Below are positions 29,665 to 40,070 of a stretch of 64,000 nt of DNA, piece by piece; within the stretch, counting starts at the first letter, position 1; every line of letters starts with the position of its first letter. Both the position numbers and the translations under genes were made by a program. The DNA is from a virus, in IMG/VR virus record IMGVR_UViG_3300021957_000009, positions 1-64,000 of that record; one strand, given 5' to 3'. The notes beneath the pieces are model-generated. The model ran no database searches. It worked only from the letters and a program-made list of their open reading frames with translations, and was not told where the DNA came from.

Positions 29665-30081
29665 TTATATAAAACACTTTTTATATAACTCTTCTTCACG
29701 TTTGTATGCCTCACGTTCCCATGGAGCATTTTCATATTTGTAGTTACGTGGCTTTTTACCCTTCCACGAATGGTTATATCCATTCAGTTCACCACGCAAA
29801 TATTGCTTGGCATGTACCATTTCATGAGCTAGTGTTTGCATCATAGATTCGTATGAAAGCTTTTCACCGTCGGATTTGCGTGCTATAGACATATCAACAT
29901 AACCCTCTTTTGGATCGCCCCAACATAACCCTTGGCTATCGTTATCGAGAGTAGTTTTAAAGTTAATGAAGATACACTTTGAATACATGCGGTTGATACC
30001 AAGCTCTTTGCAAAGAGCATGTGCGTATTCGTAGACTTTCTTTTTGTCTTTGATTTGACCTTTGATTCTAATCTGTGGCAT
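29665..30081 (-). CDS. SprT-like zinc metalloprotease
   Basis: This 138-residue protein carries the zincin motif LAHEMVHAKQYL (HExxH at about residues 92-96), then a downstream WEREAY segment that could give the third ligand. It resembles SprT-like domains, which in cells cut proteins crosslinked to DNA. It lies alone behind its own early promoter. Role in the phage unknown; action on host proteins or DNA-protein crosslinks is possible. Confidence 0.75.
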   Translation of the reverse strand: MPQIRIKGQIKDKKKVYEYAHALCKELGINRMYSKCIFINFKTTLDNDSQGLCWGDPKEGYVDMSIARKSDGEKLSYESMMQTLAHEMVHAKQYLRGELNGYNHSWKGKKPRNYKYENAPWEREAYKREEELYKKCFI

Positions 30082-30176: not shown

Positions 30177-32021
30177 CTATAACTTTGGTGAATAAATGGT
30201 TATAAGCTCTTCTTTGCCCTTTACCTTGATTTTACCTATTTCCTTGCACTTATACTCATTCGGAAGCTGTTCTTGAGTATATGATGATATGATTGTCTTA
30301 TAGTCTACATACTCATGTCGTGCGGCAGTTGCCTCGAGACGGGCTGCAAGATTGACTGCATCTCCAATGACTGAGTAATCGAATCTGGATTCAGAGCCCA
30401 TGTTACCAACAATGCAATCCCCGGTGTTAACGCCAGTACCGACATTAATATCAGGAAGGCCTCTTGATTTATATACCTCTTTAAGTTCATTGGTTTTAGC
30501 CTCTATTTCTATTGATGATTTGACTGCCATTTCAGCATGGTTATCACAAGGCAATGGTGCATTCCAGAATGCCATGATACAGTCGCCCATGTATTTGTCT
30601 ATGGTTCCACCGTTGTTTAATATGATTTTAGTCATAGCATCTAAGAATTCATTAACCAATTCTACTAATCCTTCTGGATCGTCATTGTTTTTATAGTGCT
30701 CTGATATTGGAGTAAACCCACATATATCCATAAACAAGAAAGACATCTCTTTACGATCTCCTCCTAACCTTAACAACTCAGGATTCTTTTGTAGTAGATA
30801 CACCTGCTTCGGATCTAAGTAAGTTTCAAATTGCTTTTTGATCTGCTGTCTTAACATGAATTGCTTATAGAAATTACTGAAGCTTGATGAAGCAAATGTC
30901 ATTATATATAATATCATTGAGTAAGTCATATCAAGGAGAATCTGAGATTCGTACCAGAAGTAGAAAGAAGCGCCAACTGAAGATGCAACAGTCGCAAAGA
31001 AGATTATCATCGACCAAACAATTGGAAGGTGGTATACAGCTAAGACGATTACCAGAGCACCAATTGACATTACCAGGATTTCAAGAAGGTCTGTCCACAC
31101 AGGACGAGAGATGGAAACTTCATCCATTATTGACTGAATGGCAGCAGCCTGAATCTGATGAGCAGGCATTAATCCAGCTGGAGTTGGAATTTGTGAAGCC
31201 AGACCCTTTGCAGTCAGACCAATAAAGACAGCTTGACCACCAAGATTTGGTAACTCACTGCCGTATTCTATCTCTGTAAATTTATAGTTAGGATTAATCC
31301 AAAAAGAACCATTCGCATCTGAAGGTATTCTAAAAGGTCGTATTATAACTTCTTCCACACCTACTTCATTTACTTTTATTGTATAAGATAATCTATCCTG
31401 CATAACTCTTATTGTTTCTAATGCGAACGAAGGATATAATTCATCATTGATTTGTGACACAAGAGGAATTCTTCTTACTAATCCATCAACCTCTGGCATA
31501 GCATTAATTAAACCATGACCCCATGCTTCTTTTTCTAACTGAGGTATATTGGTAACAAGGCCATCATATTTGATTAACCAGTCTAATGGATCTCCGGAAC
31601 CAAATGTGACAGTACCAACATAAGGTGCAGTTTTACTTCTACCATCTGGATCTGCATCTTGAGCAAGTATAACACCATTAGAGTTTATCCACGAAGCAAA
31701 TACTTCATCACCAGCAAACCTATCAGCTTCCGGAAACATAATAGTAAATCCTATCATTCCGGCATTTGCTTCTCGTAAGTCTGATAACATTTGAGCATAT
31801 TGATGCCTTGGAAACGGGTATTGCCCATACTTGGCTAATGCTTCTTCACCGATATTTAATAGTACTACTCCGTTACCAAAATCAGTCTCTGGAATAGTTC
31901 TTATATAACTGTCAAAAGTGTTAAGTCTTAATTGTTCTACTGGAGTTGGATCTGACACTCTTATACCGATAAGCAAAGAGGCTAATATGATTGTGGTCCA
32001 TATTGATGTTAAGTATTTCAT
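30177..32021 (-). CDS. Membrane CHASE2-class III adenylate/guanylate cyclase
   Basis: This 614-residue protein is a full sensor cyclase. An N-terminal span (about 5-23) leads to an extracytoplasmic CHASE2 domain (about 25-305; FDSYIRTIPE, GNGVVLLNIGEEAL, PFPRHQYAQMLSDLREANAG). Three spans follow (about 308-395), then a class III cyclase domain (426-614). The metal-binding Asp432 (FMDICGFT) and Asp480 (DKYMGD), base-selecting Lys476, and transition-state Asn557/Arg561 (GDAVNLAARLE) are all present, so it should be active, probably on ATP. It is the last gene of the curli-like operon. CHASE2 cyclases commonly neighbour FecR proteins in bacteria, so joint transfer from a host is likely. A phage-encoded one is unusual. 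Confidence 0.9.
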   Translation of the reverse strand: MKYLTSIWTTIILASLLIGIRVSDPTPVEQLRLNTFDSYIRTIPETDFGNGVVLLNIGEEALAKYGQYPFPRHQYAQMLSDLREANAGMIGFTIMFPEADRFAGDEVFASWINSNGVILAQDADPDGRSKTAPYVGTVTFGSGDPLDWLIKYDGLVTNIPQLEKEAWGHGLINAMPEVDGLVRRIPLVSQINDELYPSFALETIRVMQDRLSYTIKVNEVGVEEVIIRPFRIPSDANGSFWINPNYKFTEIEYGSELPNLGGQAVFIGLTAKGLASQIPTPAGLMPAHQIQAAAIQSIMDEVSISRPVWTDLLEILVMSIGALVIVLAVYHLPIVWSMIIFFATVASSVGASFYFWYESQILLDMTYSMILYIMTFASSSFSNFYKQFMLRQQIKKQFETYLDPKQVYLLQKNPELLRLGGDRKEMSFLFMDICGFTPISEHYKNNDDPEGLVELVNEFLDAMTKIILNNGGTIDKYMGDCIMAFWNAPLPCDNHAEMAVKSSIEIEAKTNELKEVYKSRGLPDINVGTGVNTGDCIVGNMGSESRFDYSVIGDAVNLAARLEATAARHEYVDYKTIISSYTQEQLPNEYKCKEIGKIKVKGKEELITIYSPKL

Positions 32022-32093: not shown

Positions 32094-32864
32094 TTATTCT
32101 TGCAGTACTGATACATTACATCCACCAAAAGTCATACAATCAATGCTTAGATTATATGTTTGGTTCATAGTACTCATTTGTTTTAAAATTAAATCTGTTC
32201 CGTATAAACCATCAAGTGTTACGTTTGCGTTGTGTGTTGCACCGTTACCTTTTTGACGAATAAACACATCGTTCTCGTCATTATATATTGCTAAATCTGT
32301 GTTCTTACTACCGTTGCTTTGTTGCTTTATTTGAACTTTATTATTATCGCCTGCTAAGTGCAAATCAAAGTCATGGCCATCCGATGCACCAGTTTGGTTT
32401 GTTTGTTGAACTGCTAATTGATTGTAGTCACCGTACATAGTAATATCTATTTCGTGGCCACCACTCTCATAGTCATCCACCCACCAAGTTAAATCAGTAT
32501 CAGAATCAAGTGTAGTCCATGCAGCACCTTGAGCAAGTTTCATCTGATTACCTGTACCACTCAATTCATCAAAGGTGATTTCATTGGGAAGTCCACCTGT
32601 TGTTGTATTAATCTGCACTAAATACATATCTAGGCTTGATACTGTAATATATGAATTAGCGTCTAACATCTTAATATTATTATTAAAACCATATTGGTCA
32701 ACACCTAATTGAAGGTTATCGCCAGATTGTTCTAATGATATTACGTTATCATCAGCATTTGCAAATAGTGGTGCTATAAGTAGCGACAATACAATAATAG
32801 GCCAAAATAAAACACTTACCCATATTAAAGCTTTCATTGAATATTCTTCTAATTTATCTAACAT
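32094..32864 (-). CDS. Secreted curlin-repeat protein B
   Basis: The 256-residue protein has a long signal segment (MKALIWVSVLFWPIIVLSLL, cut near LFANA) preceded by nine residues. The mature part opens with two curlin-type repeats (ISLEQSGDNLQLGVDQYG), matching the start of the other curlin protein here, and later has GDYNQLAVQQTNQ, GDNNKVQIKQQSNG and NDVFIRQKGNGATHN, all of the N-x-V-x-I-x-Q-x-G-x-x-N type. Two Cys lie near the C-terminus (CMTFGGC). It may act as major subunit or as CsgB-like nucleator; which one cannot be told. AGGTGA precedes the ATG at 32864, two bases after the FecR stop. Confidence 0.75.
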   Translation of the reverse strand: MLDKLEEYSMKALIWVSVLFWPIIVLSLLIAPLFANADDNVISLEQSGDNLQLGVDQYGFNNNIKMLDANSYITVSSLDMYLVQINTTTGGLPNEITFDELSGTGNQMKLAQGAAWTTLDSDTDLTWWVDDYESGGHEIDITMYGDYNQLAVQQTNQTGASDGHDFDLHLAGDNNKVQIKQQSNGSKNTDLAIYNDENDVFIRQKGNGATHNANVTLDGLYGTDLILKQMSTMNQTYNLSIDCMTFGGCNVSVLQE

Positions 32865-32865
32865 A

Positions 32866-33975
32866 TTAATTCACCTGATTTATATAGATGAGGATATCTT
32901 CACCCTCATTTCCTGTAATTATTCCATCCCATGTCGGTGTAATTGTATCTACTGTAAAGTTGCCGCCTGCTCCAAATTTAAGTCTAATTACGCCATTAAT
33001 GTTTCTATATAGTACTAAAGATCCGTCTTGTAAAAACACATTAAACTGTGATTCGTCGTTAAACCCTCTTGTCGCACCTTTGATATCAAATTCACCTAAT
33101 GTATCAAATAGATCTGAACTATCTATAATGTCTAATACATCAACTAAAAATTCTACATCTAATTCATCAATATCTAATTCATTGAATTCGTCAAGAGTAT
33201 CTTCTTCTAATTCGTCTTCTTCTAACTCAGTAAACTCTAAAAAATCTACATCTAATAGGCCTTGATCTTCATTCGTGTCGTCAGCCATTTCTTCTTTTAT
33301 CCTCTCCTTTACTTCTTCAGGAGGTGATACAATAAACATGTTGTCAATTAATGATGGTGTAATACCGTTAACTTTAATTGATTGTGTTGGTGATGAATCT
33401 AATGAAGATACCATTGTTGCGGCATAGGCTTCGTTTAATGTAACTACTCCACCTTCATTAGAAACTACTATCTCACCAGATGGATCACCATTCTCATCTG
33501 GTAGTAATATGATTAGGCTTCTACCTAATTCATCTACTGTTGTTGTAAAATCAGTTCCCCGTACGGCAATTGAGGCCGTAGGAGTCTTGATATCAATATT
33601 GGCTTTATTTACTAATCCTAATCTTCCGGATGCAAATCTAGCTGTACCCATTGTAAACTTCATACTCATCTTCGAGAGTGAAGGATCAGGGTCATAATAT
33701 ATTTCGTCTATTAGTACTTCAGAATGTTCTTTTAAAGATAGTTGAGCTTTATCTAAAAACTCAATAAGCATTCTTCCGTTACCAGTTTTTGCTTCATCGT
33801 TTAGTTCTATAGGTATCTGCTTAGATACTTTTATCTCTTCATTGTTACGCACAATCTGGCTTACGCCAGTCGACTCTACTATGTCACCAATGGAATCAGC
33901 ATAGGCGATTCCAGTGATGAATAGTAAGCTAAGAATCCCCAGCTGCGTCTTTTTGATTAATTTGTACAGTAGCAT
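32866..33975 (-). CDS. Exported FecR-domain protein
   Basis: The 369-residue protein has a signal peptide (KKTQLGILSLLFITGIAYAD), then a FecR domain (about 30-190) with the family motif IDIKTPTASIAVRGTDFTTT, then a very acidic linker (about 245-285, ELEEDELEEDTLDEFNELD) and a C-terminal domain with FQDG-like strands. Classical FecR relays signals to an ECF sigma factor; no sigma factor or TonB receptor gene is near. This stand-alone secreted type is often beside CHASE2 cyclases, as here, and may be the periplasmic partner sensed by that cyclase. The gene starts inside the curlin A gene (47-base overlap). Confidence 0.85.
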   Translation of the reverse strand: MLLYKLIKKTQLGILSLLFITGIAYADSIGDIVESTGVSQIVRNNEEIKVSKQIPIELNDEAKTGNGRMLIEFLDKAQLSLKEHSEVLIDEIYYDPDPSLSKMSMKFTMGTARFASGRLGLVNKANIDIKTPTASIAVRGTDFTTTVDELGRSLIILLPDENGDPSGEIVVSNEGGVVTLNEAYAATMVSSLDSSPTQSIKVNGITPSLIDNMFIVSPPEEVKERIKEEMADDTNEDQGLLDVDFLEFTELEEDELEEDTLDEFNELDIDELDVEFLVDVLDIIDSSDLFDTLGEFDIKGATRGFNDESQFNVFLQDGSLVLYRNINGVIRLKFGAGGNFTVDTITPTWDGIITGNEGEDILIYINQVN

Positions 33976-34669
33976 TGTCTGATGTAATATCTAAATTGAT
34001 GATAGCATTAGGAGTTGCACAAGGTGAACCTCCTACACAAGTACCTGAAATCTGATTAATATCAATGTCACCACTATCTCCATTCCACTCTACAGTCAAT
34101 GATTGAGAACCATCGTTTTGTAATGTGTTGAAGTTATTGCTGTCACCAGTAATATCAAAGTTCCAAGTTACATCATCAGATTCAAAATCTAAATCAAATA
34201 TATTTGAACCACCTAACAGAATTAAATCTGCATCTAATCTTTCTGCACTTGCACCAACTTTACCTTGATCTATATCAAATGTATTACTGTCTCCAGTAAT
34301 AGCGAAATCGTAGTTAGAATCGTCTGAACTTCCAGTGTATCCAATGTTCCAATCAACTTCGTTTGAATCACCTGTTAACGTAAAAGTTAAATCAGAGTTA
34401 TTCATGTCAATTGGTCCATATATCAAGTTTTGATTTCCTATCATATCGATATCGAATGTTAAACCTGAACCTACAATAGTCATATCAGAACCGGAACTAG
34501 TAAAATCTTCTAAACCGATTTTGTTACCATATCCAACCTGATCAATATACAACGTTAATGTATCACCGCTTTGTTCTATCATAATTTCGTTATCGTCAGT
34601 TGCTTGCGCGAAAATAGAATTTGCTGTAAATAGAAATAGCACTGCTGCTATACTAGTTAATTTCTTCAT
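33929..34669 (-). CDS. Secreted curlin-repeat protein A
   Basis: Starting at the ATG at 34669 (preceded by AGAGGA), the product has 246 residues: a signal peptide (MKKLTSIAAVLFLFTANSIF, cut near AQA) and an Asp/Asn/Gly/Ser-rich body with repeats of curlin type. The first pair (IMIEQSGDTLTLYIDQVG) closely matches the first pair in protein B; later copies include GDSNTFDIDQG, GDSNNFNTLQND and DNATVQINQKD, mostly at about 20-25 residue spacing. This fits a beta-solenoid amyloid subunit exported through CsgG. An in-frame TTG at 34714 would add 15 residues and spoil the signal. One Cys pair lies near residue 210 (CVGGSPC). Confidence 0.75.
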   Translation of the reverse strand: MKKLTSIAAVLFLFTANSIFAQATDDNEIMIEQSGDTLTLYIDQVGYGNKIGLEDFTSSGSDMTIVGSGLTFDIDMIGNQNLIYGPIDMNNSDLTFTLTGDSNEVDWNIGYTGSSDDSNYDFAITGDSNTFDIDQGKVGASAERLDADLILLGGSNIFDLDFESDDVTWNFDITGDSNNFNTLQNDGSQSLTVEWNGDSGDIDINQISGTCVGGSPCATPNAIINLDITSDNATVQINQKDAAGDS

Positions 34670-35618
34670 TTTTCGTTTCCTCTTTGTTTGCATGCCTTTC
34701 GTTTTTCCCATCAACTTGATGAGGATGCCTATGGCCTGCGGTTAAATCCCAGAACTTACGGTCGTGGCCCTGGTAGATTAATTCCAGTACAGCAGCTTCA
34801 ATAGCTGACCGTACTGCATACGTCACTGACTCATTATTTCCCACTCCGTCCTCATACTCGATAAGTTGCGTGCCTTGTTCATAGAACCTAAACACATCAC
34901 CCGACGAGCCGTAAGAAAGTACCGATTTCTTAGCTTGGACGTTTAACAAAACTTCACCTGTCAATACAGACACTGCTCTCACAGATACTGTAACAACATC
35001 TTTACGATACATCCTACTAAAACCTATGCCAAGAGTTCTTGCGCCTCGGCCTCCAGTTTCCATATTCGTATCATAACCTATAATACCACCCTCAATAATC
35101 ATTCCTGCAAATAAGAGTGGGCCAACACCATTTGGTTCTACACCATTAGCTTTAGCGACATCTTGACGAGTAGATCTTACTATTTGTCTTTCTCGTACAA
35201 GATTGTCTATTCCTTGCCTTTCTACTACTCTAAACCAGGTTCCTCCACCTGCTGTTTTGAGAGCATCTATTAACATTTCAGTACCGCCTTGGGTAACTGC
35301 AGTAGAAAACGATGCTATATTATCTACTGATTTTCTTTGACCTGTTAAATCTTTAAATCCATACACTGCAACTACTGGTTGAACCTTTGCTGCCGGCAAA
35401 TTGAGAAGATCCACAAACGCTGGAAGCTTTACAGCTTCTGGGGCATCAACACATATATACTTTCTGGCCATTGCCTTTTGTATACCCATTTGCGCATGCC
35501 TATTAAAACCTTCATCATATTTGCCATCAAGATCATTGCAATCCTGAGGGTTATTACTCCACTGTGGAACAGATGCGCATCCACTAAGTAGTAGTAATAC
35601 TAATATGTACTTACCCAC
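34653..35618 (-). CDS. csgG: CsgG-like curli secretion pore lipoprotein
   Basis: The protein (321 residues from GTG 35618, with AGGA eight bases upstream) has a lipobox LLLLSGC (Cys14) and matches E. coli CsgG through the whole core: VVAVYGFKDLTGQRK, ASFSTAVTQGGTEMLIDALK, WFRVVERQGIDNLVRERQI, IIEGGIIGYDTNMETGGRGA, VRAVSVLTGEVLLNVQAKK and SAIEAAVLELIYQGHDRKFW. CsgG forms a nonameric outer-membrane channel. In the constriction loop the Phe56 equivalent is kept, but Tyr51 and Asn55 are not and the loop is one residue longer, so the pore may differ. A 45-residue insertion lies after the lipobox. It overlaps csgF by 8 bases and curlin A by 17. Confidence 0.92.
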   Translation of the reverse strand: MGKYILVLLLLSGCASVPQWSNNPQDCNDLDGKYDEGFNRHAQMGIQKAMARKYICVDAPEAVKLPAFVDLLNLPAAKVQPVVAVYGFKDLTGQRKSVDNIASFSTAVTQGGTEMLIDALKTAGGGTWFRVVERQGIDNLVRERQIVRSTRQDVAKANGVEPNGVGPLLFAGMIIEGGIIGYDTNMETGGRGARTLGIGFSRMYRKDVVTVSVRAVSVLTGEVLLNVQAKKSVLSYGSSGDVFRFYEQGTQLIEYEDGVGNNESVTYAVRSAIEAAVLELIYQGHDRKFWDLTAGHRHPHQVDGKNERHANKEETKNEEIN

Positions 35619-36123
35619 CGTCTGAATCCTGGCCAAAGTTGCCAGTTCCTACTGGTATCTCAATAACTGTAGTTGTTCCATCGGAATCTACAATTGTCAT
35701 TTTAATAAACTCTGAACCATCTTCGTTTGTCATAACTTCATATGTTACTACATTACCTTCTAAAGTAAATGAGCCATATCGAACAGATCCATCATTACTA
35801 AACATAGATTCGACAAGTTGTTTAGACATTTGAGCATATATTCTACTCTCTAAATTACGTATAAACTTAGCCATAGTTGTATTTGCTTCTTCTCTTTCCG
35901 CTGCTTTTCTTGCTGCCTCTAAAGCATCTACTATAGCTTTTTTCCTTGTATGTTCTATATTATCAACTGTTAAATAATGTGCTCCAGTTCCAACTCCACT
36001 AAATGATGGATTTTTAAAGCCAAATTTTATTTCATCTGCTTGTACTACAAGGCTTTGTAAAGCCAATACAAACATTCCAGTTAACAATACATCTTCAATT
36101 TTTATCTTCATTTTTACTCTCAT
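35611..36123 (-). CDS. csgF: CsgF-like curli assembly factor
   Basis: This 170-residue exported protein (signal IEDVLLTGMFVLALQSLVVQ, cut near ADE) begins its mature part with IKFGFKNPSFSGVG, matching the CsgF N-terminus (FQFRNPNFGG) that plugs into the CsgG channel. It continues with RNLESRIYAQMSKQLVESMF and the beta part SFTLEGNVVTYEVMT and TTTVIEIPVG, as in CsgF. In bacteria CsgF couples secretion to nucleation at the surface. It has an extra charged helix (about 60-85) compared with E. coli. Start at 36123 or 36111 is possible. It overlaps the upstream membrane-protein gene by 29 bases. Confidence 0.88.
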   Translation of the reverse strand: MRVKMKIKIEDVLLTGMFVLALQSLVVQADEIKFGFKNPSFSGVGTGAHYLTVDNIEHTRKKAIVDALEAARKAAEREEANTTMAKFIRNLESRIYAQMSKQLVESMFSNDGSVRYGSFTLEGNVVTYEVMTNEDGSEFIKMTIVDSDGTTTVIEIPVGTGNFGQDSDGG

Positions 36124-36373
36124 TTATCTTCTTCTGCCTTTCTCTATATTCTAAAACGACCTTTACCTTTTCTTGTAGTCGTATCATATCCTGATCAAGC
36201 ATTCTAATTTGATCAATAAGTCTTATAAGGCCCATGTGCATTTCTTCAAGCTTTGGATCTAGTTCTTCATTAATGAACTTCCATATAAAAAACACGAAAT
36301 AAGCCATTCCTACAATGGCTACAGTCGTAAATCCGTACTGCTCGATTAAAACCGCTGGATTTAAGGCGTCCAT
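36095..36373 (-). CDS. Small membrane/coiled-coil protein, holin-like
   Basis: The 92-residue protein has one span (about 14-32, TTVAIVGMAYFVFFIWKFI) and a long charged coiled-coil tail (LEEMHMGLIRLIDQIRMLDQ onward). This plan fits small holin-like or XhlA/BhlA-type proteins. It lies between the endolysin region and csgF and overlaps csgF, so the lysis-type genes and the curli-like genes appear to be one transcript. A role as scaffold for the CsgG/F machine cannot be excluded. Confidence 0.6.
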   Translation of the reverse strand: MDALNPAVLIEQYGFTTVAIVGMAYFVFFIWKFINEELDPKLEEMHMGLIRLIDQIRMLDQDMIRLQEKVKVVLEYRERQKKINESKNEDKN

Positions 36374-36374
36374 A

Positions 36375-36671
36375 TTAATCCCTTCGGACGTCTATTTTAC
36401 CGTCTTCCACAAAGTTTTCTGATCGAGCAATTCTATCGATAGGTGGAGTTAACTCTAAAGCACTAGATACTAACATATCGATCTTTATTATTTCGTTATT
36501 CATTGTTCGGGCTCTATTTTCTAGGCCCTTTGTGAATATATTAAGGGTGTCTATTTGGTCTAAAACTCCTGATAGCATTTGCTTTATAATCGTAAATATA
36601 AAGAACCCAGACGCTAAAGCGCCTGCAATGGGTAATCCTACATCACTGATTAAACCAAATATATCTGGCAT
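36375..36671 (-). CDS. Second small membrane/coiled-coil protein
   Basis: This 98-residue protein has one span (about 9-33, DVGLPIAGALASGFFIFTII) and then an amphipathic helix (LDQIDTLNIFTKGLENRART). It resembles its downstream neighbour in plan, not in sequence. The pair could form a holin/antiholin set with the lysozyme two genes upstream. It shares a TAATG overlap with the upstream gene. Confidence 0.6.
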   Translation of the reverse strand: MPDIFGLISDVGLPIAGALASGFFIFTIIKQMLSGVLDQIDTLNIFTKGLENRARTMNNEIIKIDMLVSSALELTPPIDRIARSENFVEDGKIDVRRD

Positions 36672-40042: not shown

Positions 40043-40070
40043 ATAATTCTCCTGTACTGTTATTTATACA

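Follow-up and report, generated by a model that had tools for sequence, protein, structure and literature searches.

A probable curli-type secretion cassette of eight genes in a marine T4-like phage, with a FecR-domain protein, a CHASE2 adenylate cyclase and two small membrane proteins

The window analysed here is a stretch of 64,000 nucleotides (positions 1 to 64,000) from a 101,046-base virus record, IMGVR_UViG_3300021957_000009. The record carries T4-type structural genes, namely those for baseplate wedge proteins and a Gp23 capsid protein (3.4e-147), in agreement with its original assignment to a T4-like phage. Judged by its gp6-like baseplate protein, ~40 % identical to theirs, the nearest cultured phages are the Pelagibacter phages Mosig and HTVC008M and the Methylophilales phage Melnitz. 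The minus strand of the window contains, between 32094 and 36123, the csgF, csgG, curlin A and curlin B open reading frames as first listed, and the presence of csgF, csgG and two secreted curlin-repeat proteins in one gene run was confirmed from the open reading frames, Pfam matches and homologues. The four named genes, their homology and the operon structure of the original prediction therefore stand, while a FecR-domain gene, a CHASE2 cyclase gene and a pair of membrane protein genes had been overlooked; the cassette has eight genes and is larger than first noted. Its features are as follows.

40061..40068, minus strand: T4 late-promoter-like TATAAATA, upstream of the run of genes leading into the cassette; suggestive
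36375..36671, minus strand: small membrane protein 1, first of a tandem pair; 98 aa, one transmembrane segment then a coiled coil; phrog_18771 2.6e-21; no Pfam kinase domain
36095..36373, minus strand: small membrane protein 2; 92 aa, one transmembrane segment then a coiled coil; phrog_18771 6.5e-25
35611..36123, minus strand: csgF, secreted curli assembly factor; PF10614 6.9e-14, above cut-off
34653..35636, minus strand: csgG, outer-membrane lipoprotein pore; PF03783 9.9e-52, above cut-off; lipobox LLSGC; TTG start as listed
33929..34714, minus strand: curlin-like subunit A; Sec signal; Curlin_rpt 0.001; start probably 34669
32866..33975, minus strand: secreted FecR-domain protein, between the curlins; PF04773 4.2e-8; ends in the curlin-type strand IYINQVN
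32094..32864, minus strand: curlin-like subunit B; Sec signal; Curlin_rpt 0.0016
30177..32021, minus strand: CHASE2 sensor and class III adenylate cyclase; CHASE2 4.4e-40, cyclase 7e-20 (Pfam)

After the cyclase gene, window positions 29665-30081 encode a 138 aa protein with an HExxH-like motif (LAHEMVHAKQ), homologues of which were found near the cassette in 21 loci.

The identities of CsgG and CsgF are unambiguous at the sequence level, both profile scores lying above the Pfam cut-off (9.9e-52 and 6.9e-14) rather than at background. Structures of E. coli CsgG align with residues 72-300 of the phage protein (3.5e-45), and CsgF aligns with the copies from HTVC008M, Melnitz and Caulobacteraceae. 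CsgE (PF10627) was not found by profile search in the 101 kb record, as had been noted from the window, nor in nine other records, the E. coli control being positive, and no protein of the cassette matches CsgC or CsgD in Pfam. The cassette thus resembles the E. coli curli system (csgBAC, csgDEFG) in its CsgG and CsgF homologues and curlin-repeat subunits, but differs from it in that no CsgE was found, no CsgC or CsgD was recognised, and a FecR-domain protein, a cyclase and a membrane pair are added. A 1,499-base unverified 'Salmonella phage' record from wastewater (OR851715.1) encodes a CsgG 41 % identical to that of the window and may represent bacterial DNA in a phage assembly.

Such gene sets are known from earlier work on phages that infect SAR11 and OM43 bacteria. 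The csgF and csgG genes were first reported in pelagimyophages in 2020, where neighbouring hypothetical proteins were suspected as subunits (PMC7029224), so the surmise that the two genes were already on record in marine T4-like phages was correct. The complete subunit set, which had been singled out as the thing to look for in marine phages, was published in 2022: according to PMC9599517, csgF, csgG, curlin, FecR, curlin and adenylate cyclase genes, preceded by one or two 'histidine kinases', occur in Podoviridae and Myoviridae pelagiphages, and cassettes of this phage type are common throughout the ocean. The cultured phages HTVC008M and Melnitz have the same gene order, and the search made here yielded 80 viral loci. 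The present locus is a new, diverged member of a known group, its CsgG being 44.5 % identical to that of HTVC008M. It has in common with the published pelagiphage cassette six genes, their order and one or two short genes ahead of them, but the upstream genes are shown here to be without a kinase domain and the FecR-domain protein to have a curlin-type tail, neither of which is stated in the parts of PMC9599517 and PMC7029224 available. New here are the non-kinase upstream pair, the curlin-type tail of FecR and a chromosomal operon in Caulobacteraceae.

Conservation was assessed in the 80 viral loci, fetched with CsgG, each gene being counted where the contig reaches far enough. The gene order is invariant in all 80; csgF and csgG are adjacent in 79 of them, and curlin A (70/70), FecR (57/57), the second curlin (51/51) and the cyclase (42/42) are always present. 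The membrane pair occurs in 76 of 77 loci, and the one locus without it (L069) is close to the end of its contig. In the window a lysozyme gene is found just upstream, and lysozyme is a neighbour in 23 of 61 loci; it was rejected as a part of the cassette, being absent from the vicinity in most. Two large viral records carrying the cassette, L208 (250,519 bases) and L193 (339,794 bases), have a shorter, diverged Gp23 (2.9e-81 and 2.3e-81, respectively) and fall outside the pelagiphage groups that the papers name. The phage-type cassette was also seen in records labelled Rhodobacteraceae, Synechococcus, Bacteroidota or Pelagibacter (L085-L090, L093-L096 and L102; eleven with the membrane pair), which are probably phage contigs binned into bacterial metagenome-assembled genomes (MAGs). 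CsgG was found in 2 of 197 Pelagibacter-group genomes, in both cases on contigs with the phage-type cassette.

The two subunits match the curlin repeat weakly in the window and clearly in their homologues. The window's own copies (A 0.001, B 0.0016) fall just under the Pfam cut-off for Curlin_rpt, which matches 14 of 17 aligned curlin A homologues (best 8.6e-6) and 10 of 17 aligned curlin B homologues (best 5.2e-8), and curlin-type motifs are more numerous than in shuffled versions of each protein (of 2000 shuffles, 0 or 1 had as many). A methionine at residue 16 of curlin A is common to its homologues, and the start is therefore likely to be 34669 rather than the TTG at 34714. The beta fold expected of the subunits was obtained for curlin A, whose predicted structure is a strand-turn-strand stack of modest confidence (pLDDT 61, pTM 0.56); good matches to its fold come only from phage proteins labelled 'Curlin associated' (BFVD), Foldseek giving no significant match in the PDB. 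Profile searches of PDB sequences from the curlin and FecR alignments were unproductive. The second curlin of HTVC008M (gp018; L082:10573-11898) carries an N-terminal insert, and a PA14 match (2.7e-6) in one member of the curlin B alignment, probably the same protein, would suggest an added binding domain.

The repeats are degenerate and acidic (curlin A has 41 D+E against 13 K+R), and for this reason the secreted proteins could be soluble or surface-bound beta-stack adhesins that form no amyloid and are placed on the cell surface by the CsgG route. The modest confidence of the curlin A model fits with that reading, which is nevertheless considered unlikely, as Curlin_rpt matches most of the homologues, the good fold matches are confined to phage curlin proteins, and CsgF, a curlin assembly factor, is always present.

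The published label 'iron-dependent regulator FecR' is not supported by these sequences. The FecR-domain protein begins with a signal sequence, and at its C terminus is a curlin-type strand, [VI]x[IV]xQ, which closes all 64 complete FecR proteins of the cassette loci, these being related loci and not 64 independent events, and the pattern having been chosen after the alignment was seen. The same ending occurs in none of 699 other open reading frames (at least 100 aa, same strand, same loci) and in 1 of 30 unrelated FecR-domain loci of Caulobacteraceae; these controls were open reading frames over the match, some of which may be wrong frames in GC-rich genomes, possibly including the single positive. 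The tail is found in the HTVC008M, Melnitz and Caulobacteraceae copies, and ordinary alphaproteobacterial curlins share the same C-terminal ending. The FecI sigma factor and TonB receptor partners do not lie beside the gene; next to it in every locus are the curlin genes and the cyclase gene. The presence of the tail in 64/64 proteins makes it more likely that the protein is associated with the fibre or the pore than that it is an iron regulator. An AlphaFold model of the protein was poor (pLDDT 41) and was left unused.

CHASE2 is an extracytoplasmic sensor domain. The cyclase to which it is joined keeps the class III metal and substrate motifs (FMDICGFT, IDKYMGD and VNLAARLE, aligned with CyaB) and is a predicted adenylate cyclase. 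Ten phage records yielded no phage-encoded cAMP receptor or cNMP-binding domain, and such domains are uncommon in the Pelagibacter group (11 of 197 genomes).

Two Caulobacteraceae MAG contigs (L091 and L092) contain a csgF-csgG-curlin-curlin-FecR-CHASE2 cyclase operon among bacterial genes. This operon has six of the cassette's eight genes and a FecR with the curlin-type tail, but FecR follows both curlins, the membrane pair is missing and the setting is chromosomal. Bacterial curli operons can, on this evidence, include FecR and the cyclase, and the membrane pair would seem to have been added in the phages. In five further csgF loci from Alphaproteobacteria no FecR or cyclase of the cassette kind was recognised, and most CHASE2 matches in Caulobacteraceae score low against the phage cyclase profile and are not near this type of FecR. 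In the CsgG tree the Caulobacteraceae sequences fall among the phage ones, with weak support for which way the transfer went. By an AU test (p 0.039) phage CsgG may not form a single clade, but no conclusion is drawn, because the group was named after the data were seen and the comparison includes a long branch. On one of the two contigs a PycTM gene (L091:12901-13494; PF18967, 8.8e-25) of the Pycsar effector family follows the CHASE2 cyclase gene after about 440 bases, and the sister contig has a TetR gene in its place.

The genes in the position of the published 'histidine kinases', to which they were matched by position and size, have no kinase domain: none of the 31 pair members scanned matched any kinase family, HisKA and HATPase domains included, so that this label too is unsupported by these sequences. 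The proteins of the pair are 92-98 aa long, with one transmembrane segment and a coiled coil. A search with the pair itself, from which the best 80 of at least 574 relatives were taken, led back to the cassette: csgF and csgG followed directly in 72 of 79 loci. In six of the other seven the contig stops soon after the pair, and the last (L234) has been rearranged, genes the size of csgF and csgG preceding those for curlin, FecR and cyclase on the same contig. Given the limit on relatives taken, there may be more distant ones without curli genes.

Weak similarity to the holin family phrog_4898 was detected in 11 of 15 homologues of protein 2 (best 1.1e-4) and in 8 of 16 other members scanned (best 0.011); a YvrJ match reached 0.045. 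This holin-like character keeps alive, at low probability, a model of lysis control in which the CsgG pore and the pair permeabilise or depolarise the envelope and so time lysis. A role of this kind was proposed in PMC9004378, whose authors argued for a 'gated secretin or pinholin' in Melnitz from the missing csgA and csgB, and the lysozyme gene upstream of the present cassette would suit it. The argument from missing curlins, however, conflicts with the Melnitz record itself, in which two curlin-repeat proteins are annotated; lysozyme is not adjacent in most loci; the curlins, FecR and cyclase would have no lysis role; and Mosig, which must also lyse its host, has neither CsgG nor the pair by tblastn.

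A comparably small probability is given to nutrient uptake, proposed in PMC7029224 and PMC9599517, by which the CsgG pore, lacking CsgE, would stay open and admit larger nutrients to the infected cell, the curlins being secondary. An ungated pore fits the absence of CsgE from the record, but not the constancy of the curlins: both of them and CsgF are kept in every locus that is long enough, and an open pore needs neither. CsgE was not found in the Caulobacteraceae operon either, and the CsgE gate is described as helpful and not essential in E. coli (PMC7029224). Egress of virions through CsgG, which the original prediction had entertained, was rejected, the pore being far too small for a virion (PMC7029224).

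The preferred interpretation, held with about even confidence, is that of a phage-borne type VIII (curli-type) secretion cassette, probably expressed late, which exports curlin-like subunits that assemble on the surface of the infected cell, with FecR and the cyclase as a sensor of assembly. CsgG and CsgF export and nucleate curlins. In the phage, CsgG and CsgF would form the outer-membrane pore, through which the two Sec-exported curlin-like proteins would pass to the cell surface and there build a beta-stack fibre or coat. FecR would likewise be exported across the inner membrane. Since its last strand is of the type that closes the curlins, FecR probably attaches to the CsgG/CsgF pore or to the fibre as it grows; its FecR domain may then relay the state of assembly, across the periplasm, to the CHASE2 domain of the cyclase, which would make cAMP. 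The two small membrane proteins would be inner-membrane partners and not kinases. The late timing is something we infer, as the count of the TATAAATA motif in the window is not above chance; the copy at 40061-40068 is the nearest exact one upstream on the same strand. Against the interpretation stand the acidic, degenerate repeats just below the Pfam cut-off in this phage, the modest (curlin A) or poor (FecR) confidence of the structure models, the lack of clumping in Melnitz cultures (PMC9004378), and the failure to find CsgE in the record or a cAMP receptor in ten phage records. A bolder and less probable proposal makes FecR a new curli part: docked on the fibre or pore, it would replace CsgE in the periplasm and, by way of the CHASE2 cyclase, turn fibre assembly into a cAMP signal inside the infected cell. 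The membrane pair would then be a dedicated inner-membrane component that had been misannotated.

If the secretion reading is right, the likeliest benefit to the phage would be the exclusion of other phages or the holding together of cells. With its parts list corrected, what was a vaguely defined cluster of auxiliary genes becomes a machine of eight parts that can be put to the test, for which cultured models exist in HTVC008M on HTCC1062 and Melnitz on H5P1.
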